From Woeseiaceae bacterium (GTDB lineage: Bacteria > Pseudomonadota > Gammaproteobacteria > Steroidobacterales > Woeseiaceae), in NCBI GenBank assembly GCA_024640315.1, contig JAHEFF010000008.1, positions 1 to 64,000 of the forward strand: a DNA stretch of 64,000 bases. The letters are read 5' to 3'. Below are positions 5,735 to 56,451 of this stretch, piece by piece (position 1 is the stretch's first letter; every line of letters begins with the position of its first letter). Under the pieces are notes generated by a model. The model was not told where the DNA came from. It did not search any database and was given only the letters and a program-made list of their open reading frames with translations. A program made the translations under genes and the position numbers.

Positions 5735-5736
5735 TC

Positions 5737-6783: not shown

Positions 6784-6784
6784 C

Positions 6785-7561: not shown

Positions 7562-7571
7562 GGCGCCTCCT

Positions 7572-23932: not shown

Positions 23933-23937
23933 CTCAG

Positions 23938-24879
23938 TCACCGCATCAGCTTCGAACCGGATGGGTGGTTCGAGCCGTGTACCTGGGTATGACAATTCAT
24001 GCAGTTGCGGCCGAGCAGGTACTTCGACGCCGTACCGTCTGCCAGGCCATCGGGCCCATTCGCGAAACTTTGATGGTCGGCCTGCGAGTGGCAGGTCTGG
24101 CACAGCATCGGTCCGCGCAAACTCACCATGCCCGGGTGGTTTGAACCATGCGGGTCGTGGCAGGTAGAGCAATCCTCCGCGACCGGTGCGTGCTCCCACA
24201 GATACGGGCCGCGTTTCTCCGCGTGACATTCGAAGCAGGTGTCGTTCAATGTCTGACGCACGAACAGACGGTCGGTCGTCTCGCCGTGGGGGCTGTGGCA
24301 GCCACTGCAATCCATTTTCCCTTCACTGAACGGGTGCGAATAAGGCTTCAGCGCCTGTGAGCGCTGCTGCTGGTGGCAATCGAAGCAGACGTCCGGCTGG
24401 TTGGCGGTTTGCAGCACGGGGTCATGCGCGATGTGAACCTGGTGGCAATCGGCACACGCAACCTCGTTGTCGTCATGTCCACTGCCATGCCAGGCGAAAC
24501 CCGCGTCGCCGCTGTGACAATCGAGGCACACGCCATTCTGCTCAACGATCGTGGTTGCCGTGCCGGATCCAAAACGGATGACAGGAGGACGCTCCTGGCC
24601 ACGACGGACGCGACCCGCGTGCTCGCCCCCAGGTCCGTGACAGGCCTCACATTGCAATTGCCCACTGCCGAAAGGGCTACGCGCATCGGTTGGCACCGCG
24701 TGCGGAGTTTTGAATATTGACATCGTTGCCGCATCTTCATGACAGGCAATGCACGAGTCGGCACCGGCCCGGCTGTAAGTGCTTTCGGAATCAGTCGATG
24801 TCTGCGCGAATGCAACAGAAGACGACAGCAACAGCACGCACGTTACCAATGAAAATCGGCTAATAGTCGGGGATTCCAT
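23938..24879 (-). CDS. mtrA: MtrA/DmsE-family decaheme cytochrome c
   Basis: 313 residues. Signal peptide to about residue 25, then ten CXXCH sites: CIACH, CEACH, CLDCH, CADCH, CFDCH, CSGCH, CFECH, CSTCH, CQTCH, CMNCH. Length, heme count and spacing match MtrA/PioA/DmsE, the periplasmic decaheme wire that enters the MtrB barrel. Directly upstream of mtrB. A Shine-Dalgarno-like AGGAAA lies about 11 bp upstream of the ATG. Separated from mtrC by a terminator-like hairpin and its own promoter candidate. Confidence 0.93.
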   Translation of the reverse strand: MESPTISRFSLVTCVLLLSSSVAFAQTSTDSESTYSRAGADSCIACHEDAATMSIFKTPHAVPTDARSPFGSGQLQCEACHGPGGEHAGRVRRGQERPPVIRFGSGTATTIVEQNGVCLDCHSGDAGFAWHGSGHDDNEVACADCHQVHIAHDPVLQTANQPDVCFDCHQQQRSQALKPYSHPFSEGKMDCSGCHSPHGETTDRLFVRQTLNDTCFECHAEKRGPYLWEHAPVAEDCSTCHDPHGSNHPGMVSLRGPMLCQTCHSQADHQSFANGPDGLADGTASKYLLGRNCMNCHTQVHGSNHPSGSKLMR

Positions 24880-24922
24880 TCGAATACGATTTCCTTTTGG
24901 TTAACCGTTGCGATGATTTCAA

Positions 24923-24951
24923 ATGCTAAGGCGCTGATCCAGAGTAAACAA
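24923..24951 (-). promoter_or_regulatory. Candidate sigma-70 promoter for mtrAB
   Basis: On the minus strand, TTGTTT (24951-24946) and TAGCAT (24928-24923) are 17 bp apart, a fair match to -35/-10 elements, and lie 44-72 bp upstream of the mtrA ATG, after the hairpin that follows mtrC. Supports independent transcription of mtrAB. Based on eye inspection only. Confidence 0.3.
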
Positions 24952-25006
24952 TCCCTTGGCCGCACATCGAGTATATAACGTCCGGCGACTATCGCAGTTG
25001 TGAGTA

Positions 25007-25037
25007 AAGCGGGGCGCCTCAATATAGCGCCCCGCTT
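25007..25037 (-). terminator. Hairpin terminator candidate after mtrC
   Basis: AAGCGGGGCGC at 25007-25017 pairs perfectly with GCGCCCCGCTT at 25027-25037 (11-bp stem, 9-nt loop), 13 bp past the mtrC stop. In the mtrC direction the stem is followed by a short TTTA, a weak U-tract. It should reduce read-through from mtrC into mtrAB. Confidence 0.6.
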
Positions 25038-25049
25038 CTGCCTCAACTT

Positions 25050-27446
25050 CTATTCAGCACCCGGGTTGTGGAATTTCGCAGTTTCGAACTCGGCGCCGGC
25101 GCGGTGACAAACAGCACAGGCCTCCTGACCGTTCGGTATCCCCGTGCCGCTCGATCCGTCGGGGGCGCCGCAGCCGGCGCCAACGATGTTGCACTTCAGT
25201 TCATCAACCTGTGCTGCCTGGGATTCGAAATGACCTTTGGCTGCTGTGCTCGTATGACAGACGCCGCAGGCGGCCGCAGTGGGCGTCGTCGCAACGTCGT
25301 CAGTCCAGACCCTGATGTCAGATCCCTGGTTGGTGCTAACTGCCCTGGCCGTTGCCCGCGCGACATCATATGCACCTGGTTTATGACAGGTTTCGCAGTT
25401 TGCAATGCTCTGTGGGAAGGTGACACCGGCGAAGGCGCCGCCTTCAAAGCTTGTGCTCGCCGAGTGAATCGAATGAATCATACGGCCGAAGTGGTAGCCT
25501 TCCTGAGTCTCGCCGACCGGGCAGGAGCCGTCGGCCTCCGGGTTGTCCGAACATACGGCGGCGTCGCCGTTATGGCATACAAGGCAGAACTCGTAATTTC
25601 CGTTGCGGTTGCCACCGTGAGACTGCAGGCGTTCATGACAGGCATTGCATTGCGCGCTGTCGAAGGCTGCGACACGCGGCTCGCCCGGATAGTACACGGC
25701 ACTTACCGTTGATGCCCTGTCGAAGGCCGTGACGCCGTCGGCATCCGTGTACTCCCATGCCGGATGTCCGCCGAGCGCAATCGCTACGTCGCCTGTGAAT
25801 GCGGTCGGCAGCGCCCTGTAAAACGGAACGGTATAGCTACCATCCGCATTCGCTGAACCGCCGCCATTCTGGATGGCATCCTTGATGGCACCAAAGCGCA
25901 TCCTGTACGGGTAAGCAGCGTCCCGGAAATTCAAGTCCTGAACGGCCTGAATCGTCAGGTCGTCGTTGATTCTGCCGCCAAGTACAAGCCCGTTCTCGTC
26001 GCCACCATAGTAGTCAGCGGTTGCCCACTGTACATACAGGTTCAATGCTGCATTGCTGTCGAGAAACTCGGGAGCGGTGAAGATGTCGTAGGGAGTACCG
26101 GCAGGATCTGTAATCCTGAAAGTAACCACCGGCGTCTCCCCCGGTGCCGTATTGGTCGCACCGAGGATTTCGAAAACAAAATTATCGCCGGATGCAGCTC
26201 GTACCCGATCGTCTCCACGGATAGTGCTGTGGATTGCGAGCGGTGGACCGGCGCTGCTAATCACACCCAGATGGCAGGCGGAACATGCGCCGTCCTCGAC
26301 AATCCCGACATCGACGTCGGCACCGGCAAGCGTGTGATCAAAAAAGTATTCTGCCTGACCGGTCACCGCATCATAATTTTGCGCGACCAGGCCGTCTGCG
26401 TGACAACCGCCACAGGATTTGGCCGTTGCGCCCTCATTCCAGTTATCGCCGTCAGGATGAGTGGCTGAGTCGGTGTGGCAAGTCTCACAATAGGTTTTGG
26501 ACTGCGGATAGGTCACCTCACCGTAATCGTGGACCGAACCCCCGAATCCGTAGATGATGTAGGGCACTGCCCGATCTTCACCCATGTGAATCGAGTGTGC
26601 GAGATGCGCCATGTCCACCGAGTTACCGGAGTCTGGATCGACTGAGCCCGGGTTGTGGCAGGTGACACAGTATTCGACAGACTTGCGCGGGCCGCCGTGC
26701 ATCGCGAACTCGAAGTGACAGCCGGCGCAATTATTGGTGTCTGCGATATCTTTGGTCAGCCCTGATCCGGCGCCGCCGTCAGGCACAAAGTCGTAGACCG
26801 GATTGAAAGGCGCCAGTGGAGTCTCGCCTGGACCATCGAGACGGATCTCCATGCCAACCCGGTGTGTCAGGTTCGGCTGCCAGGCAACTGCGATTGGCGT
26901 GGTGATGTCGGTGACGTCATTGGCGAACGTATACCGGTATTGGCCGCTTCCGAGTTCCTCCAGCGTACCGTTTCGGTCGTTAGTGGCCTGGATAGCGGTA
27001 GCGAGACCGCCGGCCTGGCTGGATGTGGCAGTCCGATTGATATAACTCTGCCAGTAGGGCAGACCACCATTTATGTCCGGATTGGCAGGCATCAACTTGG
27101 CAAAGGTAAACAGGATCGCCCCGGCATCAATGCCCACCGCTGCATCCCCGTTACCGTCCAGTACCGTGAAATCGACGACAGGCGGACTGCTCACGGTGAC
27201 GTTGGTAATCGTCGCCTGGAGCTTGCCGAGTGTCGCTATCTCTTCCGCCGTAAGCAGGCTGCCGTCACCAATCACGATGGATGTGCCGGGAGGGGGACCT
27301 TCAGGCCCTGGCGGCCCTTCCGGTCCGGGGGGGCCGGCCGGACCCGCAGCGCCGGCTGCGCCGTCGTCTCCGGAGCAAGCCCATAAAAAGGACATCGCAA
27401 GCATCAATGCAAGCGTTTGAATGCGTTTTCGGTTGGGCCCGGTCAT
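25050..27446 (-). CDS. mtrC: OmcA/MtrC-family surface decaheme lipoprotein
   Basis: 798 residues. Lipoprotein signal with lipobox LWAC (Cys 24), then a collagen-like Gly-X-Y linker (about 26-54), beta domains and ten CXXCH sites in two groups of five: CAGCH, CVTCH, CETCH, CGGCH, CSACH and CNACH, CLVCH, CETCH, CGVCH, CAVCH. This split-pentaheme organisation and the GPxGPxG tether are typical of OmcA/MtrC outer-surface decaheme cytochromes, which reduce metals or electrodes. ATG 27444-27446 is preceded by AGAGGGG and gives the correct lipobox; longer in-frame starts do not. With mtrA and mtrB it makes a full extracellular electron conduit. Confidence 0.93.
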   Translation of the reverse strand: MTGPNRKRIQTLALMLAMSFLWACSGDDGAAGAAGPAGPPGPEGPPGPEGPPPGTSIVIGDGSLLTAEEIATLGKLQATITNVTVSSPPVVDFTVLDGNGDAAVGIDAGAILFTFAKLMPANPDINGGLPYWQSYINRTATSSQAGGLATAIQATNDRNGTLEELGSGQYRYTFANDVTDITTPIAVAWQPNLTHRVGMEIRLDGPGETPLAPFNPVYDFVPDGGAGSGLTKDIADTNNCAGCHFEFAMHGGPRKSVEYCVTCHNPGSVDPDSGNSVDMAHLAHSIHMGEDRAVPYIIYGFGGSVHDYGEVTYPQSKTYCETCHTDSATHPDGDNWNEGATAKSCGGCHADGLVAQNYDAVTGQAEYFFDHTLAGADVDVGIVEDGACSACHLGVISSAGPPLAIHSTIRGDDRVRAASGDNFVFEILGATNTAPGETPVVTFRITDPAGTPYDIFTAPEFLDSNAALNLYVQWATADYYGGDENGLVLGGRINDDLTIQAVQDLNFRDAAYPYRMRFGAIKDAIQNGGGSANADGSYTVPFYRALPTAFTGDVAIALGGHPAWEYTDADGVTAFDRASTVSAVYYPGEPRVAAFDSAQCNACHERLQSHGGNRNGNYEFCLVCHNGDAAVCSDNPEADGSCPVGETQEGYHFGRMIHSIHSASTSFEGGAFAGVTFPQSIANCETCHKPGAYDVARATARAVSTNQGSDIRVWTDDVATTPTAAACGVCHTSTAAKGHFESQAAQVDELKCNIVGAGCGAPDGSSGTGIPNGQEACAVCHRAGAEFETAKFHNPGAE

Positions 27447-27709
27447 TTTTATTCCCCTCTTTCTTGATGGCCTGCTCAGATGTGGATTTACTCGATCGTC
27501 ACAAATGAACACGGTTGTACTCTATGTTGCTTTCTACCAAACGTTAACAGTTTTTCTCACCTCGGCAAATACTTATGCCATTGCGGCACAGTAGCTATTC
27601 GACGCTGGCCGTGGATAATTAAAGATATCGCCGCAGGCTATCGACCGGCAGACGCAGGCATTCAGGTGGGCAGAAATTGTGGTTTTCGCCCCAAAAAAAA
27701 GGAATCCGA
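27447..27709. promoter_or_regulatory. Divergent intergenic region, mtrC / plus-strand cluster
   Basis: The largest gap in the window, about 263 bp, between divergent transcription units, so promoters for both are expected. On the minus strand TTAACG and TAGAGT, 17 bp apart around 27520-27550, could serve mtrC. AT-rich runs (GTTAACAGTTTTTCTC near 27543-27558, and eight A residues near 27693-27700) are present. No FNR- or CRP-type full palindrome was found. No gene larger than the small ORF at 27710 is supported here. Confidence 0.4.
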
Positions 27710-30405: not shown

Positions 30406-30424
30406 AAATCACCGATTGTGATTT
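30406..30424. promoter_or_regulatory. Dyad AAATCAC-N5-GTGATTT upstream of the undecaheme gene
   Basis: Perfect 7-bp inverted repeat AAATCAC CGATT GTGATTT about 53 bp upstream of the ATG at 30477. The symmetry and position are those of a dimeric regulator operator. It does not match FNR (TTGAT-N4-ATCAA). No regulator gene is in the window. Confidence 0.35.
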
Positions 30425-30476
30425 GCGCGTGCTCCGCTTACCTAGAGGTTATGGCGCAGTCTCAGAGTCTGCAAAG

Positions 30477-32414
30477 ATGTTCGTAATCACTCGATTCGCC
30501 CGTGGCGTGTTCACAGTTGGCCTGTTCTTGTTGTTAGTGGCCACGTTCGCCCCAGCTCAGGAAACCGACTGCGCCGGCTGTCACGATTCCGTCACCATCG
30601 CCTCGCCGGCGCACCCGGATCTCGCTTGCGCGGACTGCCATAGCAATGTCACGTCGGAGCACCCGAACCTGGTTACCGGGCCGACCGGCGAGCCGAGCTG
30701 CAACGATTGCCACCGACGCCCGAGTCGCGAAATCGATCGCAGCGTGCACAGCGGCACCGCGAGCTGCACTGACTGCCATGGTGCGGCGCATGAGATCGGC
30801 AAAGTGGCAGATATTGCCTCGGCTGTCTCGCCGGTCAATCAAATTAAATACTGCGGTGGCTGTCACGACGAGCCGGCGTCACTCGTGGACGGCTACCTGA
30901 CCAGCGTGCATGGCAAAGGATTACTCCTCTCGGGTTTGATCAACGCGCCTGGCTGCAGCGACTGTCATGGAGCTCACAATATCGTCGCCGTCAGTAACGA
31001 CAAGGCCTCGACATCACACTTTAATAGCCCGGAAATCTGCGGCTCGTGTCATGTGCTGCTGTTCGAGGGCTGGAAAACCGGCAGCGCGCACGGACTCGCC
31101 TGGGAGGCAGGCGAAGAAAGCCCGGTCTGCACAGACTGTCATTCTTCACATCAGATTGCAGATCCGACAATGCCGCCGGAGCGCCTGGCATCGGCGGAAA
31201 GTTGCGGCGCATGCCACTCGGAATACCTGACGACATTCCGGGATAGTTTCCACGGCAAGGCGAATGACCTGGGCTTCGTCAGTGGTGCGACATGTTCCGA
31301 TTGTCATACGCCGCATTCGAATCTGGCTGCCGATGATCCGCTGTCCAGTGTCCATCCGGATAATCTCAGTGAAACCTGCGGCGAGTGTCATGCAGGTATT
31401 GCTGCGTCAATGCTGAGCTTTGATCCGCACAACGACCCATCCAATCCAGACGATAACTTTTACGTCTATGTTATCTGGGTATTTATGACCGGACTGCTGA
31501 TTGCCGTATTCGGTTTCTTCGGATTGCACGATCTGCTCTGGCTGCAGCGGGCGCTGGTCGGTTCAATGCGCGGCGAATTCCGCGAAGAGGAGCAGAATCG
31601 CGATCAGTACGTGCAGCGTTTCTCGAAGATGAATATCCGCATGCATGTGACAATCATAGTGACATTCCTGTTACTTGCGTTGACCGGTTTGCCACTGAAA
31701 TTCCATGATGCCGGCTGGGCACAGCAGTTGATGAACATGCTGGGAGGGATCGATGCGTCGCGAGTCATTCACCGTGTAGCCGCTATCGGGACATTCGGAT
31801 ACATGGCCTTTCATCTCGGCAACCTGCTCTTCCGCTGGGTGGTTAGACGAGAAAAAGGTTTATTCTGGGGTCCAAATTCGATGGTGCCGCAGCCGAAGGA
31901 CGTCGCTGACATCTTTGCCAACTTCCGCTACTACCTGTACCTGGGCAAGCGTCCCGATAATGACCGCTGGAATTACATCGAAAAATTCGATTACCTGGCG
32001 GTGTTCTGGGGTGTAATGATTATTGGTTTGTCCGGGTTAATGCTATGGCTGCCGATGTTCTTCACGAGCTTCCTGCCTGGCTGGACGATCAATGCGGCTT
32101 ATGTCGTTCATAGCGACGAGGCGTTGTTGGCGACCGGCTTCATCTTTGTTTTCCACTTCTTCCACACACACCTGCGGCCAGGGAGTTTTCCGATGGATAC
32201 GGTAATATTCACGGGCAAGATGTCCCTGGTGCGGTTCCGGTCCGAGCGCCCTCTCGAGTATCAGCGCCTGGTCGATAACAATGAATTGCAGGCTTTTCTC
32301 GTTGAGCCGCCGACTCTCGAGGAGCGTCGCCGTGCGTATGCCTGGGGCACGGTATTTCTTATAGTTGGCGTCTTGCTGGCAGTCGGGATAATCTGGGCGC
32401 TTCTGGCCCACTGA
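30477..32414 (+). CDS. Undecaheme cytochrome c fused to di-heme b membrane domain (CbcL-like)
   Basis: 645 residues. Signal peptide (about 1-27) then eleven CXXCH motifs in the first about 310 residues: CAGCH, CADCH, CNDCH, CTDCH, CGGCH, CSDCH, CGSCH, CTDCH, CGACH, CSDCH, CGECH. The C-terminal about 300 residues hold about six transmembrane helices with membrane His residues near 390, 432, 446, 560, 563 and 565, the pattern of FdnI/HydC-like cytochrome b subunits. This order (multiheme c then b) is that of Geobacter CbcL, an inner-membrane quinol:cytochrome c reductase, which has nine c-hemes. The protein is inner-membrane with a periplasmic heme domain. The ATG at 30477 fits the signal peptide; an in-frame TTG lies upstream. 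It probably acts with the next gene in quinol oxidation. Confidence 0.85.
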   Translation: MFVITRFARGVFTVGLFLLLVATFAPAQETDCAGCHDSVTIASPAHPDLACADCHSNVTSEHPNLVTGPTGEPSCNDCHRRPSREIDRSVHSGTASCTDCHGAAHEIGKVADIASAVSPVNQIKYCGGCHDEPASLVDGYLTSVHGKGLLLSGLINAPGCSDCHGAHNIVAVSNDKASTSHFNSPEICGSCHVLLFEGWKTGSAHGLAWEAGEESPVCTDCHSSHQIADPTMPPERLASAESCGACHSEYLTTFRDSFHGKANDLGFVSGATCSDCHTPHSNLAADDPLSSVHPDNLSETCGECHAGIAASMLSFDPHNDPSNPDDNFYVYVIWVFMTGLLIAVFGFFGLHDLLWLQRALVGSMRGEFREEEQNRDQYVQRFSKMNIRMHVTIIVTFLLLALTGLPLKFHDAGWAQQLMNMLGGIDASRVIHRVAAIGTFGYMAFHLGNLLFRWVVRREKGLFWGPNSMVPQPKDVADIFANFRYYLYLGKRPDNDRWNYIEKFDYLAVFWGVMIIGLSGLMLWLPMFFTSFLPGWTINAAYVVHSDEALLATGFIFVFHFFHTHLRPGSFPMDTVIFTGKMSLVRFRSERPLEYQRLVDNNELQAFLVEPPTLEERRRAYAWGTVFLIVGVLLAVGIIWALLAH

Positions 32415-32505: not shown

Positions 32506-33909
32506 ATGTTGAAAAATTTTCTTGCGTCGATTACTCGTAACGGCATCAGCATCGCCGGCACGGCACTAGCGATCGCGAGCATTGTACTTATCATCAGTCT
32601 GTTCTTCATGGAGCAGCTGGGTTTCGAAGGTGGGCCGTATCTCGGCATCCTGACGTATCTCATTCTGCCGGTAATATTTGTTACCGGATTGATTCTGATT
32701 CCGATCGGTGCCGTTCTTTATCGCCGCAAGTTGCAGCGTATCCAGGGAGACGAACAGGCACCGCTATTACCGGTGTTCGACCTGAACGTAGCCGCGACCC
32801 GACGCTGGTTGTTCGTGTTGCTCGGCGCAACAATGCTAAACATCGTGATTCTTGCCGGCGCCACATATAAGGGCGTTGAGGTGATGGAATCCGTTGAGTT
32901 TTGCGGTCTGGCCTGCCATTCGGTTATGGAGCCGGAACATACCGCATATCAGAGGTCATCCCATTCCCGTGTCGCCTGCGCGGAGTGTCACATCGGCCCC
33001 GGCGCCGACTGGTTCGTCAAGTCCAAACTCGATGGCGCATGGCAGCTTGTCGCTGTCGCCTTCGATCTCTATCCACGTCCGATTCCGACGCCGCTGCACG
33101 ACTTGCGCCCGGCGCGAGAAACCTGCGAGCAGTGTCACTGGCCGAACAAGGTCGTTGGCGACAAGCTTTCTATTAGAAAGCGTTATGACGAGGATGAAGG
33201 TAATACAGAGTTGACGACAGCTTTGCTACTCAAGGTTGGTGGTGCAGAGGGCGAGCAGGCGCATGGAATACACTGGCATGTCGATTCCGGCGTACAGATA
33301 CGCTATCGATCGGACGAATCACGCGAAGAGATTTACGAAGTCGAATACACGAACGCTGAAGGCGAGACGAAATTATTTGCCGACAGAAGAGCCCCCGAAG
33401 ATGGTGGTCAGTGGCGCCAGATGGACTGCGTGGACTGCCACAACCGGCCGAGTCACAAATATTATGCTCCTGAATTCGAAGTCGATCGCGCGCTGCAAGA
33501 GGGTTCGATTGATCGGTCATTGCCGTTTGTCAAACGCGAGGCCGTACGTATTCTCGACGCCCAGTACCCATCACACGAGGAGGCCAGAACCGCTATCTCA
33601 GCCGGGCTGACGAGCTACTACAACGAGAACCATCCCGACGTAGCCGCCAGTCAGGAGAGCGCAATCAACACCGCCGCAAATACACTCGGTGATCTGTATT
33701 CGGTCAACGTCTTTCCGGAAATGCAGGTTTGGTGGAATACCTATCCGGAGCATATTGGCCACCAGAGTTCGGAGGGATGTTTTCGTTGCCACGGCAGAAA
33801 ACTGCGTACGGAGGATCGCGAGATGATTTCACAGGACTGCGATGTCTGCCATACGATTCTTGCGGAAAAAGAAATCGAGCCTGACATCCTGACCTTGTTG
33901 AATCCTTGA
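32506..33909 (+). CDS. NapC/NirT-family hexaheme cytochrome with N-terminal membrane region (ImcH-like)
   Basis: 467 residues. Three hydrophobic helices (about 16-36, 47-72 and 101-120) lead into a periplasmic region with six heme sites: an unusual CX3CH (Cys133, Cys137, His138 in FCGLACHSVMEPE), then CAECH, CEQCH, CVDCH, CFRCH and CDVCH. The NapC/NirT signature ACAECHIGPGADWF is clear. The three-helix N-terminus plus NapC-type multihemes resembles Geobacter ImcH (seven hemes). Predicted inner-membrane quinol oxidase passing electrons to periplasmic carriers. ATG 32506 has GGGA 8-10 nt upstream. It lies between the CbcL-like gene and frdC with short gaps. Confidence 0.85.
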   Translation: MLKNFLASITRNGISIAGTALAIASIVLIISLFFMEQLGFEGGPYLGILTYLILPVIFVTGLILIPIGAVLYRRKLQRIQGDEQAPLLPVFDLNVAATRRWLFVLLGATMLNIVILAGATYKGVEVMESVEFCGLACHSVMEPEHTAYQRSSHSRVACAECHIGPGADWFVKSKLDGAWQLVAVAFDLYPRPIPTPLHDLRPARETCEQCHWPNKVVGDKLSIRKRYDEDEGNTELTTALLLKVGGAEGEQAHGIHWHVDSGVQIRYRSDESREEIYEVEYTNAEGETKLFADRRAPEDGGQWRQMDCVDCHNRPSHKYYAPEFEVDRALQEGSIDRSLPFVKREAVRILDAQYPSHEEARTAISAGLTSYYNENHPDVAASQESAINTAANTLGDLYSVNVFPEMQVWWNTYPEHIGHQSSEGCFRCHGRKLRTEDREMISQDCDVCHTILAEKEIEPDILTLLNP

Positions 33910-33939: not shown

Positions 33940-34719
33940 ATGCCTGTCAAAGCGAAAAATTCAGGAACGATCCCAACGGTGGTCAGTGACGCGCGCCGAC
34001 AGCTTTATTATGAGCTGGTGAGTGGGGCCAGCGGCCTGGTGCTCGCTTTGTTCATGTGGGGCCACATGGTCCTTGTCGGTTCGATACTGACAGGTGAGCG
34101 TGGTTTCAACTGGCTCGCGGAAATGCTGGAGGTATATTACATCGCGCAGCCAACCGTCGTCGTCATCCTTGTACTGTTTCTTGTGCATGCAGCACTCGCG
34201 AGTCGCAAGATTCCGGCGCAGTTGGCAGAACGGCGACGCATGATTGAGCTTGGCAAGGGTTTGGCGCATGCGGGCCGTGATCGGCCTGCCACTGCAAGCG
34301 CCATATCGCCGCTGCAGGCGCACGTGGAGTCGCGGCTGTGGATCTGGCAGGTACGGACAGGCATGGTCGTGCTGGTACTGGGCAGTTTTCACGTGATTCT
34401 GCTGGGAATTGACGTCCTGACGCCTTTGTTCGGTGAGCGTCCGGGCATCGAGGCGCTCACCAGCGTTGCCAGGGTCAAAGCCGGGCTGTGGCTACCGTAT
34501 GCAATATTGTTGCTCTGCGTCGAGTTCCATGCCAGCGTCGGCCTCTACAGACTGGCCGTCAAGTGGGGCGTCGGGCGGCATTTTTCCCGTCGGGCTCTGC
34601 ACATCATTGAGCGCGTGCTGCTCTGGTTCTTCCTCGGCCTCGGTGTCGTCGTGTTACTCGTGCTTGCGGATGTGTTGTCGCCTCCGCTCGCATTCCTGCT
34701 GACGGGACCGGCGACATGA
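33940..34719 (+). CDS. frdC: Fumarate reductase di-heme cytochrome b subunit FrdC (Wolinella type)
   Basis: 259 residues, five hydrophobic helices. Four candidate heme-ligating His residues at 42, 83, 151 and 197 are spaced like His44, 93, 143 and 182 of Wolinella succinogenes FrdC. Glu64 (22 after His42) and Glu195 (two before His197) match Glu66 and Glu180, which are needed for menaquinol oxidation and the E-pathway. This points to a menaquinol:fumarate reductase of the di-heme, single-subunit type. frdA overlaps its stop by ATGA. Confidence 0.88.
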   Translation: MPVKAKNSGTIPTVVSDARRQLYYELVSGASGLVLALFMWGHMVLVGSILTGERGFNWLAEMLEVYYIAQPTVVVILVLFLVHAALASRKIPAQLAERRRMIELGKGLAHAGRDRPATASAISPLQAHVESRLWIWQVRTGMVVLVLGSFHVILLGIDVLTPLFGERPGIEALTSVARVKAGLWLPYAILLLCVEFHASVGLYRLAVKWGVGRHFSRRALHIIERVLLWFFLGLGVVVLLVLADVLSPPLAFLLTGPAT

Positions 34720-36659
34720 GTTCCGAGCTTATCAGCACTGACGTACTGGTTATCGGTGGCGGCCTTGCCGGAGAGCGCTGCGCGATCGAGGCTGCGGCCG
34801 CCGGACATGACGTCCTTATCCTGTCGCTGGTGCCGCCGCGGCGCAGCCATAGCTGTGCGGCACAGGGCGGCATGCAGGCAGCCCTCGGCAATTGCGTCAA
34901 GGCAGAGGGCGACAACCCGACGGTACATTTTCTCGACACCGTACGCGGCTCTGACTGGGGTGCCGATCAGGAGGTGGCGCAAATCTTCACCGAGGAGGCC
35001 CCGATAGCGGTCCGCGAACTGGCGCACCTGGGCGTGCCATGGACGAGAGTCCGCGGCGGTAAGAACAGTTACGTGATCAAGGGCGAACGCGTCGAGATCG
35101 AGGAGAGTATCGAAAATGACGGCCTGATCATGCATCGGGATTTTGGCGGTACCGCCAAGTGGCGCGCTTGTTACGCGGCGGCGGCAACCGGCCATGCGGC
35201 ACTTTATGCCGTAGACAGCGAAGTGGTCAGACTAGGAATTACGGTTCGTGATCGCGCCGAAGCCGTCGAATTGATCCATGAAGGCGGTCGCTGCTGGGGA
35301 GCGGTTGCTCGCTGCCTCAGAACAGGCAAGCACTTTGCAGTCGTTGCGAAAGCCACTGTAATTGCGACAGGTGGCTATGGCCGGATTTATGGCCAGTACA
35401 CAACCAATGCAACGATCAACGAAGGCATGGGCGCGGTGATCGCCATGAACACGGGCGTTGTGCCCCTGGGAAACATGGAGGCCATACAATTTCACCCGAC
35501 GGCGCTCGCCCCCAGCAATATCCTGGTTACCGAGGGCTGTCGCGGTGATGGTGCCTACCTTCTGGACAAGGATCTGCATCGTTTCATGGTTGATGCTGAG
35601 CCGGCAAAACAGGAACTTGCGAGTCGTGACGTCGTATCCCGTCACATGAAACAACGCATGCGTGACGGCAAAGGTGTCGACACGCCATACGGCCCGCATC
35701 TCTGGCTCGATCTTCGCCACCTGGGCGAGCAGCATCTGACCACAAAGCTGCGCGAAGTCTGGGAGATTTGCCGGGACTTCGCCGGCCTGAATCCAGTCAA
35801 TGACCTTATTCCAGTGCAGCCCACGCAGCATTATTCGATGGGCGGCGTGCGCGTCAACAAGGATGGTCAGGCCTACAACATGGCCGGTCTGTTCGCGGCC
35901 GGTGAAGCCGCCTGCTGGGACATGCACGGTTTCAATCGCCTGGGTGGAAACAGCCTCGCCGAGACGGTAGTTGCCGGTCGAATCGTTGGTCGGCGCGTCG
36001 CCGAGTTTGTTGCGACCTCAAGTCTCGATGTTCAAACCGGTCTCGCTTTTGCGGCAAAGGCTTCGGCGGAACAGCGCGCGATCGCGTGGCTTGGCCGGTC
36101 GGGCGCTGGTCCGAGCGTATACGCAATTCGTAATGCGATGGGCGAGACGATGATGGGCAAGGTCGGTATCTTCCGAACCGGCGGCGAACTGGAAGAAGCG
36201 GTGGCGGAAATTTCGGCTTTGCTCGCGGATTGCGATAAGGCGGTGCTGCGTTCCAAAGCGCCGGGCATGAATCCCGAACTATCCTTTGCGCTGCGCCTGA
36301 AGGGTATGTTGCGACTTGCGCTCGTGACAGCAAAGGGCGCGCTTCTGCGAACAGAGAGTCGCGGCGCTCACTATCGGTCCGACTATCCATTACGCAATGA
36401 TGCAGAGTGGTTAAGTCGCACGCTCGCCCGCTGGCCTGCGGACGCTGCGGAACCGGAGTTCAGTTATGAGCCTGTTGGCGAGATCGACCTGCCACCCGGT
36501 CATCGCGGCTATGGCAGCGACGAACGAATCGAAATGACGGAGTCGTTAGAGCAGTACAACGATGGCGTATACGAGCGGCAGGCGAAACACGGTCGATTAG
36601 CCACGGCAGAATTGCCTGGCAGCAGGCTGCGTCGCGGCGATTGGAAGGAACTGGTATGA
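34716..36659 (+). CDS. frdA: Fumarate reductase/succinate dehydrogenase flavoprotein FrdA
   Basis: 647 residues. N-terminal FAD-binding VLVIGGGLAGERCAIEAA, the covalent-FAD His in RRSHSCAAQGGMQAALGN (about residue 46), substrate-site QPTQHYSMGGVRVN near 370, and FNRLGGNSLAETVVAGRIVG near 410. No signal peptide or twin-arginine motif, so it faces the cytoplasm and is not the periplasmic methylmenaquinol type. It overlaps frdC and frdB by 4 bp each; gene order C-A-B is that of Wolinella-type enzymes. Reduces fumarate or oxidises succinate. Confidence 0.92.
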   Translation: MSSELISTDVLVIGGGLAGERCAIEAAAAGHDVLILSLVPPRRSHSCAAQGGMQAALGNCVKAEGDNPTVHFLDTVRGSDWGADQEVAQIFTEEAPIAVRELAHLGVPWTRVRGGKNSYVIKGERVEIEESIENDGLIMHRDFGGTAKWRACYAAAATGHAALYAVDSEVVRLGITVRDRAEAVELIHEGGRCWGAVARCLRTGKHFAVVAKATVIATGGYGRIYGQYTTNATINEGMGAVIAMNTGVVPLGNMEAIQFHPTALAPSNILVTEGCRGDGAYLLDKDLHRFMVDAEPAKQELASRDVVSRHMKQRMRDGKGVDTPYGPHLWLDLRHLGEQHLTTKLREVWEICRDFAGLNPVNDLIPVQPTQHYSMGGVRVNKDGQAYNMAGLFAAGEAACWDMHGFNRLGGNSLAETVVAGRIVGRRVAEFVATSSLDVQTGLAFAAKASAEQRAIAWLGRSGAGPSVYAIRNAMGETMMGKVGIFRTGGELEEAVAEISALLADCDKAVLRSKAPGMNPELSFALRLKGMLRLALVTAKGALLRTESRGAHYRSDYPLRNDAEWLSRTLARWPADAAEPEFSYEPVGEIDLPPGHRGYGSDERIEMTESLEQYNDGVYERQAKHGRLATAELPGSRLRRGDWKELV

Positions 36660-37408
36660 CGAAGAAAGAGTCCGGCAAGGCGCGACGTTTACGATTCGAG
36701 ATTTTCCGTTACAACCCGGAAGACCCCGAATCCGAGCCGCATATGCAGGCCTTCGAGATCGATGAAGCGCCATACATGTCACTGTACATTGCGCTTAATC
36801 AGATTCGTGAAACGCTGGACCCCAGCCTGCAGTTCGACTTCGCCTGTCGTTCGGCGATCTGCGGTTCCTGCGGCATGATGGTAAATGGTCGTCCCACCCT
36901 CGGTTGCCGCACGTTAACCTCCGATCTGCCGGAGGTTGTGCGCCTGCACCCGCTGCCGGTATTCAAATTGATTGGCGACCTGTCGGTCGATACCGGCACC
37001 TGGTTCAGGGAAATGGTGGAGAAGTCGGAAGCCTGGATACATGCCAAAGAGGCGTTTGATCCGCAGGCTAAGGAAGCGCGCATGGATGATGACCTGGCGC
37101 AGGCAATATACGAGGGCGAACGCTGTATCGAGTGTGGTTGCTGCGTCGCTTCCTGTGGCGTCGCCAACGTCAATCAGAATTTCGCCGGGCCGGCTGGTCT
37201 CAATCGAATTGCGCGCTTCATGATGGACCCGCGTGACCAGCGCAGCGACGCCGAATGGTTCGAGGTCGTGTCGAACAGCGACGGCGTGTTCGGTTGTCTC
37301 GGCATGATGGCCTGTCACGACGTCTGTCCCAAGGAACTTCCGCTCCTTGAGGTGTATGCCTACCTGAGAAGGAAAACGCTTGTCGCGGCCTTTGCAGGTC
37401 GCTCCTGA
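36656..37408 (+). CDS. frdB: Fumarate reductase iron-sulfur subunit FrdB
   Basis: 250 residues with a 2Fe-2S motif CRSAICGSCGMMVNG, a 4Fe-4S motif CIECGCCVASC and a 3Fe-4S motif CLGMMACHDVCP. Links FrdA to FrdC. ATG 36656 overlaps the frdA stop as ATGA, with AAGGAA about 6 nt upstream; a longer start at 36641 is less likely. Confidence 0.92.
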   Translation: MTKKESGKARRLRFEIFRYNPEDPESEPHMQAFEIDEAPYMSLYIALNQIRETLDPSLQFDFACRSAICGSCGMMVNGRPTLGCRTLTSDLPEVVRLHPLPVFKLIGDLSVDTGTWFREMVEKSEAWIHAKEAFDPQAKEARMDDDLAQAIYEGERCIECGCCVASCGVANVNQNFAGPAGLNRIARFMMDPRDQRSDAEWFEVVSNSDGVFGCLGMMACHDVCPKELPLLEVYAYLRRKTLVAAFAGRS

Positions 37409-37595
37409 GCACATCGCGATTCTGAGCAGCCACCAGCTGCTATCGGCCGCTCCGGGCCGGTCACAATTTTCCAGTACCCGAAACAACGCTACGGATCATA
37501 CGTATTTGCGTTGCGGTCCTGCTGCGTCAGTCTAGGCACCAGCAAGAAGGGTCGAACTATTAAAGACCCCGCCTTCTACCGGCAGTTCAGCTGTT

Positions 37596-37626
37596 TTGAC
37601 AGCCCGTAGTGATTCGCGTCCTAATA
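37596..37626 (+). promoter_or_regulatory. Candidate promoter for the tetraheme/Fe-S/NrfD unit
   Basis: A perfect -35 TTGACA at 37596-37601 is followed after 18-19 bp by CCTAAT/CTAATA at 37620-37626, about 18 bp before the ATG at 37645, which has GGGGAG at 37631-37636. The 187 bp between frdB and this site show only weak stems (for example CAACGC/GCGTTG around 37484-37514). Confidence 0.4.
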
Positions 37627-37644
37627 CCATGGGGAGCGTCGAAG

Positions 37645-38115
37645 ATGAAGTGGCATGTACTACGCCCCCTGTGGGTCGCGATCGGCATAGTCGGATCAAT
37701 TCTGATAGCTCGCGTATTCCTGGTCCCGGATGACTTCGGCATTCATGGGCGCAACTTCACCTACGGTTTCCATCGTCTAAGTAACATTCAGGAATGGAAG
37801 GACTTCCAGGTCAAATATCAAGGCAGGGAATACTGCGTCGAATGCCATGACGAAAAGGTCCAGATGCTCAACCAGTCGCCGCATGAGCCTGTTGAGTGCG
37901 AGAACTGCCACGGGCCTGCCGTCAATCATCCTGACGAGATTGAAATGTTGCCCATCGACAGGACGCGCGAGCACTGTCTCAGGTGTCACGCACAGCTCAA
38001 TTATCCGCACAGCGCCAGGGACCAGGCACCCGGTATCAATAACAGAATGCATTCGCGGCGCCGCGACTGCGTCGAGTGCCATGTTCCGCATGACCCCAGG
38101 GAGTATAAAGAATGA
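37645..38115 (+). CDS. Membrane-anchored tetraheme cytochrome c
   Basis: 156 residues. An N-terminal uncleaved-looking anchor (about 9-27), then four heme sites: CVECH (64-68), CENCH (85-89), CLRCH (111-115) and CVECH (142-146). It overlaps the Fe-S gene (ATGA at 38112) and lies upstream of an NrfD-like subunit, so it is the periplasmic electron-transfer subunit of that membrane complex. The set resembles DsrJ-O-P and other NrfD-type modules (including Geobacter Cbc gene clusters) but has four rather than three hemes. GGGGAG precedes the start at 37645. Confidence 0.82.
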   Translation: MKWHVLRPLWVAIGIVGSILIARVFLVPDDFGIHGRNFTYGFHRLSNIQEWKDFQVKYQGREYCVECHDEKVQMLNQSPHEPVECENCHGPAVNHPDEIEMLPIDRTREHCLRCHAQLNYPHSARDQAPGINNRMHSRRRDCVECHVPHDPREYKE

Positions 38116-38882
38116 CTTGTTCTCGTAGGGACTTCCTGAAAGAGGCCGTGGGCGGAACACTGGTGTCGTCGCTGCCACTAAGCGCGTTTGTCTTCCTGAC
38201 TACGGAAGAGGCCGAAGCTGCCATTGCCGAAGCCAAAGTGAGATGGGCGTTCCTGGTCGATACAACAACCTGCACAGGTTGCGGCTTGTGCGTCAAAGCC
38301 TGCAAAACCGAAAATGAAATCCCCTACGAAGCGCCGGTAACACGAACCTGGGTCGAACGCTACGTGGTAACGAAAGACGGCCAAACGCACATCGATTCTC
38401 CACTGGGCGGTCGTGACGGGTTCATCGACGACAAGATACGCGACGAAGAAATAGATCCGGACAACATCGACAAGGCCTTCTTTGTACCGAAGCTTTGCAA
38501 CCAGTGCGATAACCCGGCGTGTGTCCAGGTGTGCCCCGTCGGCGCAACCTATCAAACGCACGATGGCGTCGTTCTGATCGACAGGGAGTGGTGCATAGGT
38601 TGTGGCTACTGCATCATGGCCTGCCCTTATGGCGTCAGATTTTTTCATCCAACTGCGAAAGTCGCTGACAAGTGCAACTTCTGCTACCACCGAATCAGTA
38701 AAGGCATGCAGCCGGCCTGCGTTGAATGCTGCTCATTTGGCGCCCGTCGCCTGGCAAACCTGGAAGATCCGGACGATCCGGTTACCAAGATTATCAGGAC
38801 GGAGAGGGTGGCGGTCTTGAAAGATGAATATGGTACGAAACCACATGTTTTCTATATCGGTCTCGACGAGGCAGTGAGGTGA
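38112..38882 (+). CDS. Periplasmic Tat-exported ferredoxin-type subunit (NrfC/DsrO-like)
   Basis: 256 residues. A twin-arginine signal, SRRDFLKEA, at residues 4-12, then cysteine clusters for four 4Fe-4S centres: CTGCGLCVKAC, CNQCDNPACVQVCP, CIGCGYCIMACP and a CNFC/CVECC group. This is the PsrB/NrfC/DsrO type. Mediates electron transfer between the NrfD-like membrane subunit and the tetraheme cytochrome. Between them with 4-bp overlaps or spacings, so one complex. Confidence 0.88.
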   Translation: MTCSRRDFLKEAVGGTLVSSLPLSAFVFLTTEEAEAAIAEAKVRWAFLVDTTTCTGCGLCVKACKTENEIPYEAPVTRTWVERYVVTKDGQTHIDSPLGGRDGFIDDKIRDEEIDPDNIDKAFFVPKLCNQCDNPACVQVCPVGATYQTHDGVVLIDREWCIGCGYCIMACPYGVRFFHPTAKVADKCNFCYHRISKGMQPACVECCSFGARRLANLEDPDDPVTKIIRTERVAVLKDEYGTKPHVFYIGLDEAVR

Positions 38883-38886
38883 TTTC

Positions 38887-40140
38887 ATGAATGAAGATGT
38901 CATCGTTCACGGAGTGGAATGGACCGTAAAAGAATTGTTCGTCTATCCGAACGAGTTCATCTACTGGAGTATCCAGATTGTCATGTATCCCTACATGACG
39001 GGATTGGTGGCAGGTGCATTCGTATTATCGTCCCTGTATCACGTCTTTGGTAAAAAGGAACTCAAGGAAATTGCGCAGTTCTCGCTGGTTTTCTCACTCG
39101 CCTTGCTGCCGGTGGCCGCGCTGCCATTGTTGCTCCATTTGCAGCAACCTTTGAGGGCCATGGAACCTCTGCTTACGCCGCATTTTACTTCCGCGATCGC
39201 CGCGTTCGGCATCGTTTTTACGGCCTACGGACTCATTGTGTTGAGTGAGATCTGGTTCGTCTATCGGCAGTACTTTGTCGAACAAGTCTATGCCCTGAAG
39301 AGCGAGCCCGGTTTTGCAAATACATTGAAACGCAGTGTTTATCGTGTCCTTACCATTGGTGCATATGATGTCAGCGCCGGCGCTGTCAAAGTCGATAAGA
39401 AGGCGGCGAAAATTCTCGCTGCCATCGGCATTCCGGTTGCTTGCTTCCTGCATGGCTATGCCGGCTTTATTTTTGGCTCGGTTAAGGCCAACGCACTGTG
39501 GATGTCACCGTTAATGCCGGTGATCTTTATCATGTCGGCGGTTGTTTCCGGCATCGCTCTGTGCATGCTTACCTACATCATCATCATGGAGTGGCAGGCC
39601 TTCTGGCAGCGACGCCGCGGTGGCGCGCTTGCTGCCAGTGAAATCAAGGGCGCGGAGGTCGACGTGATCAGCAGCGCGACGAGGTATCTGCTGGGATTCC
39701 TCGTTGCCGCAATCAGTCTTGAGTTACTCGATCTGATTTTTCGCGGTTATACAGCGATGAAGTCCTGGGACATTCTGCGTTCAGTCATGTACGGCAAGGA
39801 TTTCATGAACATATTCGTGCTGCAGTACACGCTCGGAAATCTGGTGCCATTCGTCCTGTTGATCCTTCCAGGGAGAACGATGAAGCGAACGGTCCTGGCC
39901 CTCTTGCTGGTGCTTTTTGGTGTTTTCATGATGCGCTGGAATGTCGTTATTGGTGGCCAGGCATTCTCCCTGTCTTTCTCCGGTTACATGCACTATGAAA
40001 TTCCCATCATCCCGCACAGCATGGAAACTTTTAAAGAAGGTTTGTTTGGAGCGCTGACGGTGATCGCCACGCCGTTCGTGCTGTTCTGGGTCATCAATCA
40101 GTTCGTGCCGTCGCTGCGAAGGAATGTGGAGGAGAACTGA
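38887..40140 (+). CDS. NrfD/PsrC-like quinone-interacting membrane subunit
   Basis: 417 residues, about ten transmembrane helices; NrfD family features include the early YWSIQIVMYPYMTGLVAGAF and HLQQPLRAM on the second helix pair and LSFSGYMHYEIP near the end. Quinone oxidation or reduction site on the periplasmic side is expected for the family. No molybdopterin or other catalytic subunit is encoded next to it, so the trio looks like a quinol:cytochrome module. Starts 4 bp after the Fe-S gene. Confidence 0.88.
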   Translation: MNEDVIVHGVEWTVKELFVYPNEFIYWSIQIVMYPYMTGLVAGAFVLSSLYHVFGKKELKEIAQFSLVFSLALLPVAALPLLLHLQQPLRAMEPLLTPHFTSAIAAFGIVFTAYGLIVLSEIWFVYRQYFVEQVYALKSEPGFANTLKRSVYRVLTIGAYDVSAGAVKVDKKAAKILAAIGIPVACFLHGYAGFIFGSVKANALWMSPLMPVIFIMSAVVSGIALCMLTYIIIMEWQAFWQRRRGGALAASEIKGAEVDVISSATRYLLGFLVAAISLELLDLIFRGYTAMKSWDILRSVMYGKDFMNIFVLQYTLGNLVPFVLLILPGRTMKRTVLALLLVLFGVFMMRWNVVIGGQAFSLSFSGYMHYEIPIIPHSMETFKEGLFGALTVIATPFVLFWVINQFVPSLRRNVEEN

Positions 40141-40183
40141 TAACCTTAATCAGGCGCTCAGCGCCTCATTGCCTGATGGCAAC

Positions 40184-41869
40184 ATGATGAAAGAACGTAT
40201 AGCTGACCTCGAATCGCGGCTGGCTGTTGTTGAAAAGCGGTTGGCTAAGCTCGAACGCGGGTCATCGGCAGAGAGCAGGCGCGATGGCGTACCCCCGGAG
40301 CCGTCACTTAGTGAAGGTTTTATTGCTGACGCCTCGACCCACATAGGTCGCGTCCTGCTCATTTTTGGCGGCGCCTACCTGTTACGCGCGATCACCGACT
40401 TCCAGTTTGTTCCAACTGGCGTTGGCATTTTCATGGGCGCGAGCTATGCATTTGTATGGCTCTTCATGGCCAATCGCAACGCCAGGGTCGAAAGTCAGCG
40501 TGCGAGCGCCGCGTTTTATGGTGGCGCATCGGTGCTGCTGGCGTTGCCGCTGCTTGTCGAAGCGACTTCCCGATTCGAATTATTGTCGGGACGGCAGGGC
40601 AGTATCGCACTCACCGTGTATTGTTCGCTGGCGCTTGCCGTGGCGGCGAAACAGAATCTGCGCACGCTTGGCTGGCTGGTGACCAGCGGCGGTATTGGCA
40701 CCGCATTCGCGTTGATGATCGTGTCGCACACCGCCGTCGCCGTGTCGGCCTTTTTGCTCATACTCGGTCTCGGGTCGCTGTGGGTCGTCTACTGGCGGCG
40801 GTGGATGGGGCCTCAGTGGCTCGGAGCGCTTGGGGCAAACGCGGGTGTGTCGGCCCTTATCGTGCTCAGTAACAGCGACCAATGGTCGCTTGAACCCGCG
40901 ACTGCCGCTCTGTTTGGCGGCACCTCGCTCATCGCCTACTTGCTGAGTTTTGTCATAGGTTCACATCTTCGTGGGCGCCAGGTCGGCATTTTCGAGGCAG
41001 CGCAGGCACTGTTTGCATTTGGCATCGCTTATTGGGCAGTCAGCGTTGCCGCACAAGCAGGACAATTGAGCCTCATGCCGATCGGTATCCTGGCGGTAGC
41101 GCTGGGTGGTTCCGCCTATGCCCTGGCATTCTCGCCTGTGACGCGCGATGTCCGTGGACGCAATTTTTTCTACTATTCCTCGCTTGGGCTGCTCTTTGTA
41201 CTCGTTGGCAGTTCACAGCTTATGTCGCCGACTGCAACCGCGGCTCTCTGGTCTTTGATGGCGCTCACCATGGCCTGGCTAAGTGGTCGAACCGGCTGGG
41301 TGGCACTGAGTCTGCAATGCACGGTTCTGTTGCTCGCTGCCGGCATGAACTCCGGCATCCTGGCGACAGGACTGCTGGCACTGGCGGGGGATAATACGGC
41401 GTCATGGCCTGCACTTCTTCCATTGCACGTGGGTATTGCGATGACGACGGTTGTCTGTCTCTTCCTTCCGGTTGCGCAACACTCTGAGCGCTGGGGCGCA
41501 CTCGCTGGCCTGCCGCAGTTGATCGTGTTGGCGCTATCGGTCTGGGAGGTGGGCGGACTCATGGTCTTATACCTGGCGCCGATTCTCGCCGACATAACCG
41601 GAGCAGAGCCAAGCCTCGCTATTTTGGCAGCGTTGCGGACAGCTGTCCTGTCCGCGTCATCCGTCACTCTGGCGCTTTCAAGCCGCTTCAGGCGCTGGCC
41701 GGAGGCGCGTTGGCTGGTTTATCCGGTTCTGATTGTCGTTGCGATCAAGCTGTTCGTTGAGGACTTTCCCAATGGCCAGCCCGCCAGTCTGTTTGTGGCG
41801 CTCGTATTCGTTGGCGGTTCGTTATTGCTGGTCGCCAAATTGCTGAGCCGCAGAAAGGTGGAGAACTAG
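40184..41869 (+). CDS. DUF2339-like multi-spanning membrane protein
   Basis: About 561 residues. The N-terminal MKERIADLESRLAVVEKRLAKLE coiled coil is followed by about 18 hydrophobic helices, as in DUF2339 proteins of unknown function. The start is uncertain: ATG 40184 or 40187, no good Shine-Dalgarno; a longer ATG at 40124 would overlap nrfD with no spacing. A hairpin AGGCGC/GCGCCT at 40152-40166 lies in the short gap. Its TAG stop shares a CTAG palindrome with the convergent cytochrome gene. Possibly unrelated to the respiratory genes. Confidence 0.65.
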   Translation: MMKERIADLESRLAVVEKRLAKLERGSSAESRRDGVPPEPSLSEGFIADASTHIGRVLLIFGGAYLLRAITDFQFVPTGVGIFMGASYAFVWLFMANRNARVESQRASAAFYGGASVLLALPLLVEATSRFELLSGRQGSIALTVYCSLALAVAAKQNLRTLGWLVTSGGIGTAFALMIVSHTAVAVSAFLLILGLGSLWVVYWRRWMGPQWLGALGANAGVSALIVLSNSDQWSLEPATAALFGGTSLIAYLLSFVIGSHLRGRQVGIFEAAQALFAFGIAYWAVSVAAQAGQLSLMPIGILAVALGGSAYALAFSPVTRDVRGRNFFYYSSLGLLFVLVGSSQLMSPTATAALWSLMALTMAWLSGRTGWVALSLQCTVLLLAAGMNSGILATGLLALAGDNTASWPALLPLHVGIAMTTVVCLFLPVAQHSERWGALAGLPQLIVLALSVWEVGGLMVLYLAPILADITGAEPSLAILAALRTAVLSASSVTLALSSRFRRWPEARWLVYPVLIVVAIKLFVEDFPNGQPASLFVALVFVGGSLLLVAKLLSRRKVEN

Positions 41870-52945: not shown

Positions 52946-52982
52946 ATCAGTTCCCGTGTGTCTGTGTTCCTGATTCCGTTAC

Positions 52983-56034: not shown

Positions 56035-56046
56035 CTTACTAACTCC

Positions 56047-56451
56047 TTAAGCCGGATCCTCTGCCAGTTCGTTTTCGAGCCCCGCCAGCCCGGCGCGAAT
56101 ATCCTCAGGCTGAGATTCGAGAAGCGAAGGAATGAATGTGACTTCAATTTGCCGTCCAATAATTTCACCCTCGGTATTCCGGTGTGTTACCAGCCATACG
56201 CCCGGGTAGGACGTTTCGAGAATGACGCTTGGACCGAGTGCGTTCAGTTCCGCACGAACCTCGCCCTCGCCAAGCGCCTCTTCAATTCGTTTCTCCTCGC
56301 CGGGCGCCAGCGGCAGGGCCCGCATGTCGATAATGGTGCCGTCTTCACCTTTCAGCAGGCGTTCGAGTGCGTGGCGGATTTCGTGAAGCAGTGGTTTGAC
56401 GTTGCCTGTTTCGTATTCCGCACGAATGGAAATTGCTTCTGACGCACTCAT
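56047..56451 (-). CDS. HupH/HyaF C-terminal-domain-like hydrogenase protein
   Basis: 134 residues. LGEGEVRAELNALGPSVILE and TSYPGVWLVTHRNTEG recall the conserved C-terminal region of HupH/HyaF, but the N-terminal half is missing, so it is a short form. HupH is linked to small-subunit maturation. Between hupD (4-bp overlap) and hynS (12 bp). Confidence 0.7.
   Translation of the reverse strand: MSASEAISIRAEYETGNVKPLLHEIRHALERLLKGEDGTIIDMRALPLAPGEEKRIEEALGEGEVRAELNALGPSVILETSYPGVWLVTHRNTEGEIIGRQIEVTFIPSLLESQPEDIRAGLAGLENELAEDPA

Follow-up and report, generated by a model that had tools for sequence, protein, structure and literature searches.

Gene sets that combine a cytochrome c, an iron–sulfur (Fe-S) protein and a membrane subunit have been described in Geobacter sulfurreducens and in cable bacteria. 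Here, we compare these systems with a trio of adjacent genes, encoding a tetraheme cytochrome c, a Fe-S protein of the twin-arginine translocation (Tat) type and an NrfD-family membrane subunit, at 37645-40140 of contig JAHEFF010000008.1 (assembly GCA_024640315.1). The window, meaning the whole stretch of DNA that was analysed, comprises 64,000 nucleotides (G000:C31 in our genome set) and belongs to a 3.55-Mb assembly that is 85% complete. We take the host to be a Woeseiaceae-like gammaproteobacterium, because the closest named NrfD homologs come from metagenome-assembled genomes (MAGs) labelled Woeseiaceae, Gammaproteobacteria or Chromatiales. The trio probably encodes a quinone:periplasmic cytochrome c oxidoreductase of the NrfD type, which would consist of three subunits and stand alone; MtrCAB would be its likeliest sink in this organism.

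Closest described systems

Cable bacteria, like other Desulfobulbales, have a dsrOhPh-tetrahaem locus ("pACIII") that contains tetraheme, DsrO-like and NrfD-type genes. Its hemes are described as His-His ligated, it is found in 5/16 genomes without sulfur metabolism genes, and a role in electron transfer from the quinone pool to the periplasm has been speculated (PMC13047784). The cable-bacteria locus has also been termed a "candidate alternative complex III" (PMC11976967). The window trio likewise places a tetraheme, a DsrO-like and an NrfD gene away from dsrMK, and His-His ligation is here predicted from conservation. Unlike the window, cable bacteria add a small TMH1 gene (PMC13047784). Their DsrPh has been placed near DsrP, whereas the clade of the window is separate from DsrP in our trees, in which the deep order is weakly supported; the two systems are likened by description and not by sequence. 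DUF2339, discussed below, does not occur in the text of that paper, and the parts of it covered here leave Mtr linkage unmentioned.

Cbc4 (CbcSTU) of G. sulfurreducens comprises a c-type cytochrome, a Fe-S protein and a membrane subunit, with no catalytic subunit named, and is assigned as a menaquinol:ferricytochrome c oxidoreductase (PMC11434368, PMC7894505); CbcU is termed a b-type cytochrome (PMC11434368). The trio has the same gene content without a catalytic subunit, as compared by description and not by sequence. CbcS presumably carries four hemes. SirCD of Shewanella oneidensis, the partner of the sulfite reductase SirA, can be likened to the trio in the same way, again by description rather than sequence. 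SirCD can replace CymA (PMC11434368).

DsrJOP shares the gene order of cytochrome, Tat Fe-S protein and NrfD-family subunit with the trio, but it has three hemes, belongs to another clade, differs in its quinone-site and gate residues and goes with DsrMK. Alternative complex III has further subunits, including the large ActB; no large ActB or other Act gene was seen beside the trio, where no search for act genes was made. Its ActC subunit offers the closest solved fold and has the same His, Ser and Arg types (PMC8076601). Thus, the trio is a well-conserved member of an architecture already in print (Cbc4, pACIII), to which it is likened by description. What is new here is its context (DUF2339, MtrCAB) and the definition of its clade.

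The three genes and their products

An earlier reading of the letters alone (the sequence-only reading) had proposed a tetraheme/Tat-ferredoxin/NrfD module that might serve as a quinol:cytochrome c interface in an electron hub. This composition is confirmed by three forward-strand open reading frames (ORFs) in the order cytochrome, Fe-S protein, NrfD, by their heme motifs and Cys quartets, and by a PF03916 match. The proposed role has become the best-supported one, given the lack of a dedicated catalytic subunit in 80 loci, an extra His for each heme, the quinol-site residues and the linkage to Mtr genes in some relatives. The genes, with the downstream neighbor, are as follows.

37645..38115, forward strand: tetraheme cytochrome c with a hydrophobic N-terminal anchor (156 aa; ATG at 37645, stop at 38115, four CXXCH)
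38112..38882, forward strand: Tat-type NrfC/DsrO/TtrB-like protein (256 aa; 16 Cys for four [4Fe-4S] clusters)
38887..40140, forward strand: NrfD-family quinone-binding membrane subunit (417 aa)
40184..41869, forward strand: DUF2339 multi-helix membrane protein (561 aa with the start codon chosen here; a further ATG of the same frame is found upstream, at 40124)

Of the "tight overlaps" described earlier, the one between the cytochrome and Fe-S genes is real (4 bp), whereas the Fe-S and NrfD genes are separated by 4 bp. The promoter candidate attributed to the trio could not be confirmed. A scan of 37300-40400 gave no forward promoter-like site and so lends no support to an own sigma-70 promoter; the sole promoter-like site in this range, for which 2.0 would be expected by chance, lies on the reverse strand within nrfD. 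The gap between frdB and the trio measures 236 bp.

In the cytochrome, a hydrophobic N-terminal anchor reaches a Kyte-Doolittle window value of 2.4 from residue 9 (counting M as 1). None of 20,000 same-composition shuffles contained four CXXCH motifs (maximum 2), and all 58 aligned homologs have four, in line with the earlier count of four rather than three hemes. Besides an N-terminal His, four extra His are conserved in 97-100% of these 58 proteins. Because each heme has such a conserved extra His, the cytochrome looks like a carrier of four bis-His hemes (with predicted ligands) without an open substrate site, that is, a relay. Comparison with the Protein Data Bank (PDB) returned weak matches only, the best of which (E 4e-4) was an octaheme nitrite reductase. 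The Fe-S protein has a twin-arginine motif (SRRDFLK, by eye), Fer4 domains and 16 Cys in four quartets, all at least 95% conserved in 67 aligned Fe-S proteins.

The NrfD subunit scores 117.2 bits against PF03916 (cut-off 25.8) and has the residues expected of an NrfD-like protein: Ser102 in the quinone pocket, His84 at the acidic/His position of transmembrane helix (TMH) 2 and Arg350 at the semi-conserved gate of TMH8. These three are invariant in 77/77 aligned NrfDs, among which 210 positions are at least 95% conserved, and they correspond to NrfD His74, Ser92 and Arg306 as numbered in PMC8076601. A PF03916 search of the 85% complete assembly found no second NrfD besides that of the trio.

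The AlphaFold model of the subunit (mean pLDDT 74.9) is closest to ActC of alternative complex III (Z 28.7-30.4; at best 3.2 Å over 358 residues) and matches PsrC at Z 18.4. Subunits of bd oxidases also score 16-20, so Z values in that range can reflect general helix packing. The likeness to ActC came from fold comparison. A profile search of PDB sequences with NrfD gave no match at 0.01; families missing from the fold-match list were not treated as excluded.

Conservation and family tree

One scan of genome contigs yielded 256 NrfD relatives, and the best 80 form our locus set: 28 of gammaproteobacterial type (gamma loci) and 52 others (Desulfobulbales, other "Deltaproteobacteria", Nitrospirota and a few unplaced MAGs). 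Since ORF picking drops overlapped genes, gene presence was recounted by tblastn. NrfD identity to the window amounts to 84-91% in 27/28 gamma loci, 81% in the remaining one (L056) and 69-81% in the non-gamma loci. The cytochrome and Fe-S genes directly precede nrfD in 74/80 loci. In the six exceptions (L028, L042, L053, L073, L083, L103), the contig edge lies at most 321 bp before nrfD, and five of these still keep the Fe-S gene, whole or partly. As 74 loci are complete and the exceptions end at a contig edge, the trio is obligate as a unit.

Trees were built from 55 and 34 NrfD proteins; the smaller one omits 12 paralog rows, L166 and 12/24 clade A rows, and has four rows added. Three of the six DsrP rows were verified by an NCBIfam model (465-486 bits) and the rest were labelled from length and gene context, while the tree-tool label "Myxococcota" on rows named "Deltaproteobacteria bacterium" was disregarded. 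The window NrfD belongs to clade A (25 rows with support 100/99 in the 55-protein tree; 12 rows with 99/98 in the 34-protein tree). This clade has as relatives clade B, a gamma group with a four-heme cytochrome and an eight-heme Woeseiaceae type, and the joint group is equally well delimited (35 rows, 100/99; 26 rows, 99/98). A phylogeny against DsrP had been suggested by the sequence-only reading; the six DsrP rows stand apart (100/100 in the 34-row tree). The deep order in the 55-protein tree has a support of 51/10, and L191 is a long branch of uncertain place in the 34-row tree.

Among 99 relatives, the trio occurs at 81% identity or more in 14, the window's own genome included. Clade A was found in two of 369 genomes of the window's class, namely its own and one of its family. 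Desulfobulbales-type genomes hold both clades, A and B (confirmed by a search with a gamma-type relative): in a sample of 242 genomes from the order to which G102, a MAG labelled Desulfobulbaceae, belongs, clade A is present in 64 (63-81% identity) and clade B in 34 (41-48%). One gammaproteobacterial genome (G099) has two NrfD copies of this family (L117, L126), the second a shorter 378-aa frame.

The relatives show some variation of the theme. Clade B loci (L167-L179) have their own tetraheme/Fe-S/NrfD set, with some frames uncalled in some loci; directly downstream lies an eight-heme cytochrome, of PF13447 type in the two scanned, which is possibly a catalytic partner. The gammaproteobacterial four-heme relative L189, in which one heme motif has altered spacing, adjoins genes that by eye resemble flavocytochrome c sulfide dehydrogenase. 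In two Woeseiaceae-family genomes, G034 and G057, the clade A trio was not detected although the same gene region is present. Both genomes have frdB, apbE, menA, nqr genes and a gene for a CBS protein there, whereas the region's diheme cytochrome and hydrogenase genes were called in G034 only. After menA, both genomes instead have an eight-heme cytochrome, a Fe-S protein (45-46% identity) and an NrfD (L192, L193; 45-46% in the first search, 43% by tblastn). Such a swap of one cytochrome/NrfD module for another fits an interchangeable quinol:cytochrome c interface.

Neighboring genes

Clustering of ORFs from the 80 loci and the window, many with short flanks, gave 32 clusters present in at least four loci. 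Among those identified there is no catalytic partner common across groups; some small clusters are unassigned. The commonest neighbor is the DUF2339 membrane protein, which in the window scores 41 bits against PF10101 (cut-off 33.6); 12 of 15 sampled DUF2339 neighbors pass E<=0.001 against this family. It lies downstream in 25/27 gamma loci with room, L029 and L037 being the two that lack it. In 27/38 non-gamma loci with room it is found upstream, almost always in divergent orientation. Its structural model is of modest confidence (pLDDT 68.8, pTM 0.57), had no PDB match at E<=0.001 and was given no weight in assigning a function. The complex probably includes the DUF2339 protein as a fourth subunit or has it as an accessory. 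In the open-licence PubMed Central (PMC) literature, we found no paper with both DUF2339 and NrfD.

In the window itself, the following genes share the surroundings of the trio.

21809..27512, reverse strand: MtrB/PioB porin, ten-CXXCH MtrA-like cytochrome (23938-24879) and OmcA/MtrC family cytochrome
30423..32414, forward strand: 11-CXXCH cytochrome fused to a b561-type domain (domain and motif scans)
32506..33909, forward strand: NapC/NrfH-like pentaheme cytochrome, a CymA/ImcH-like candidate
33940..37408, forward strand: FrdCAB quinol:fumarate reductase genes, directly upstream of the trio

The fusion protein, whose layout we take to be CbcL-like, and the pentaheme NapC-like protein are two more candidate quinol:cytochrome c exits in the gene row of the trio. 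Thirteen loci, drawn from both groups and counting the window, have a pentaheme NapC-like protein close to the trio. Genes for a cbb3 oxidase, like the Mtr genes, are on the strand opposite the trio. Past the trio, this opposite strand encodes NqrA-F, MenA and a [NiFe] hydrogenase. Between the subunits of the hydrogenase (51227-56942) are encoded a CCG/Fer4 protein and what is probably a membrane protein, a layout that presumably resembles the Isp1/Isp2 type. Farther off, three adjacent ORFs at 4442-7777 contain DUF6152, a domain of unknown function.

Outside the gamma group, a Rieske-type protein follows the trio in seven Desulfobulbales-type/Nitrospirota loci. In six of these (L059, L064, L067, L083, L092, L093), a cytochrome b and a five-heme cytochrome accompany it, so that a bc-like complex adjoins the NrfD complex; one member of each of these three clusters was scanned. 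A four-heme cytochrome of a single cluster occurs farther along in L059, L064, L067, L092 and L093, and L092 has a second Fe-S/NrfD pair besides the trio.

Link to the Mtr genes

The occurrence of mtrCAB has been reported for sediment Woeseiaceae, where the part of the source covered does not name the inner-membrane quinol interface (PMC12175321). In our search of the open-licence PMC literature, no NrfD trio was tied to MtrCAB in Woeseiaceae. Of the 20 gamma loci that extend 3.5 kb or more downstream, three (L025, L033, L040) have genes for MtrB, a ten-heme cytochrome and MtrC directly beyond DUF2339, in opposite orientation. The distance between the trio and an MtrC gene is 4.8-10.6 kb in G000, G014, G027 and G052 (the last apparently the same contig as L025) and 54 kb in G021. 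At the level of whole genomes, OmcA/MtrC is present at E<=1e-20 in 13/14 trio genomes versus 22/85 others (one-sided Fisher p 2.5e-6), and at the curated cut-off in 11/14 versus 22/85 (p 2.5e-4).

Proposed mechanism and alternatives

In the mechanism that we propose, the three proteins would form a complex that oxidises menaquinol on the periplasmic face of NrfD, at His84 and Ser102; menaquinone is suggested as the quinone by menA in the window. NrfD would hand the electrons to the exported Fe-S protein, whose four [4Fe-4S] clusters would relay them to the anchored cytochrome with its four bis-histidine hemes. Multiheme cytochromes, either soluble or bound to a porin, would accept them next, with the MtrCAB conduit as the likeliest sink. 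Proton translocation through NrfD, with Arg350 as a gate, is possible, and the DUF2339 protein would be associated with this assembly.

Several findings weigh against this view. Of the 20 gamma loci with room, 17 have no adjoining Mtr gene. The co-occurrence statistics for OmcA/MtrC ignore shared ancestry, and within the largest genus the contrast is 8/9 versus 11/18 (p 0.15); the association test, moreover, leaves out the Desulfobulbales and Nitrospirota carriers. Only 9 of the 23 gamma loci whose flank is long enough have FrdB upstream of the trio. Of the two genomes that carry the eight-heme relative, G034 also has dsrA. The eight-heme cytochrome of the sister clade, B, is possibly catalytic, so that the trio may have lost a partner or had it relocated. 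The statement that no catalytic gene is conserved is qualified by frdCAB and by the unassigned small clusters; frdA/frdB occur in 9-10 loci, in the gamma group only, and frdCAB has its own anchor.

The trio might also be a variant of DsrJOP and complete a complex that contains DsrMK. Comparable genes of cable bacteria were initially named DsrOP (PMC10926707), and the Fe-S subunit, at 189.3 bits, narrowly misses the DsrO cut-off of 200. The earlier comparison with DsrJOP stands for the architecture and fails for membership, which we rejected: the NrfD scores 27.8 bits against a DsrP cut-off of 350, the cytochrome has four hemes and is no triheme DsrJ, and the NrfD clade is separate from DsrP. 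At the TMH2 and TMH8 positions, clades A and B have His and Arg where the DsrP rows have Asp and Lys. The alignment agrees with published assignments here, since the same residue types are given per family: Asp in DsrP, Lys in one D. vulgaris DsrP, and His and Arg in NrfD and ActC (PMC8076601). Three genomes (G105, G107, G108) hold a model-verified DsrP as well as the trio. Among 99 genomes searched, dsrA matched in seven (over the cut-off in two) and in none of the 14 with the trio, neither the 85% complete genome of the window nor the 13 others. A dsrMK-like partner elsewhere in the genome, named earlier as what would overturn the orphan status, was not found either, having been looked for via dsrA and the NrfD family only (dsrM and dsrK were not searched for). 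A DsrJOP variant is thus highly improbable. It is somewhat less improbable, albeit still quite unlikely, that the trio supplies electrons to a reductase of which it forms one half, the catalytic subunit (an octaheme or other periplasmic enzyme) being encoded at a distance. This idea draws on the eight-heme cytochrome that lies directly downstream in clade B, the sister clade of Desulfobulbales type, in which NrfD is 38-48% identical to that of the window; both scanned examples of this cytochrome match PF13447. Nothing comparable is conserved beside clade A in the 80 loci, and the genome has no match to NrfA-type PF02335 (the E. coli control was positive) nor to PF13447, the latter a weak argument as no control genome matched and the assembly is 85% complete. 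NrfABCD membership was rejected, as there is no NrfA and both the NrfC (161.3 bits, cut-off 377.6) and NrfD (36.5 bits, cut-off 347.6) equivalog models stay below cut-off. As claimed earlier, no molybdopterin or sulfite-reductase partner is present among the window ORFs scanned, some small ORFs being outside the scan. Both PF00384 matches of the 85% complete assembly are on other contigs and, by eye, sit in a NAD-linked formate-dehydrogenase-like operon and the Nuo operon; a molybdopterin-type partner as in Psr, Ttr or Qrc was consequently rejected, with none beside the trio and both genes having other partners.

The same complex could run in reverse and, like QrcABCD of sulfate reducers, reduce the quinone pool with electrons from periplasmic or extracellular donors (Fe(II), sulfide, hydrogen). 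The window also encodes a hydrogenase, a cbb3 oxidase and Nqr. Apparent flavocytochrome c genes stand beside the gamma relative L189, and Qrc is itself an NrfD complex that reduces menaquinone (PMC13059093, PMC8076601). On the other hand, the nearby Frd, NapC-like and MtrCAB genes fit quinol oxidation, although conduits of the MtrCAB kind can work in both directions, and there is no adjacent QrcB-like subunit; we consider the reverse direction unlikely, if less so than a distant catalytic subunit. About as unlikely is a broader picture, in which three inner-membrane quinol exits side by side (the CbcL-like b/c fusion, the NapC/CymA-like pentaheme cytochrome and the NrfD trio) would all serve MtrCAB, comparable to the potential-specific ImcH, CbcL and CbcBA of Geobacter, which are needed at different potentials (PMC12133095). 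The trio and DUF2339 would then be the exit that conserves energy: a "complex III" reduced to four subunits, able to translocate protons and spread by gene transfer between Gammaproteobacteria, Desulfobulbales and Nitrospirota.

Significance

The clade of the trio bears on a published open question, namely the role of dsrOhPh-tetrahaem ("pACIII") in cable bacteria and other Desulfobulbales. It flags DUF2339 as a likely partner of the trio. With the same architecture present in gammaproteobacteria in which no dsrA was found, several of them with the trio near MtrCAB, a CymA-type quinol exit for extracellular electron transfer becomes testable.

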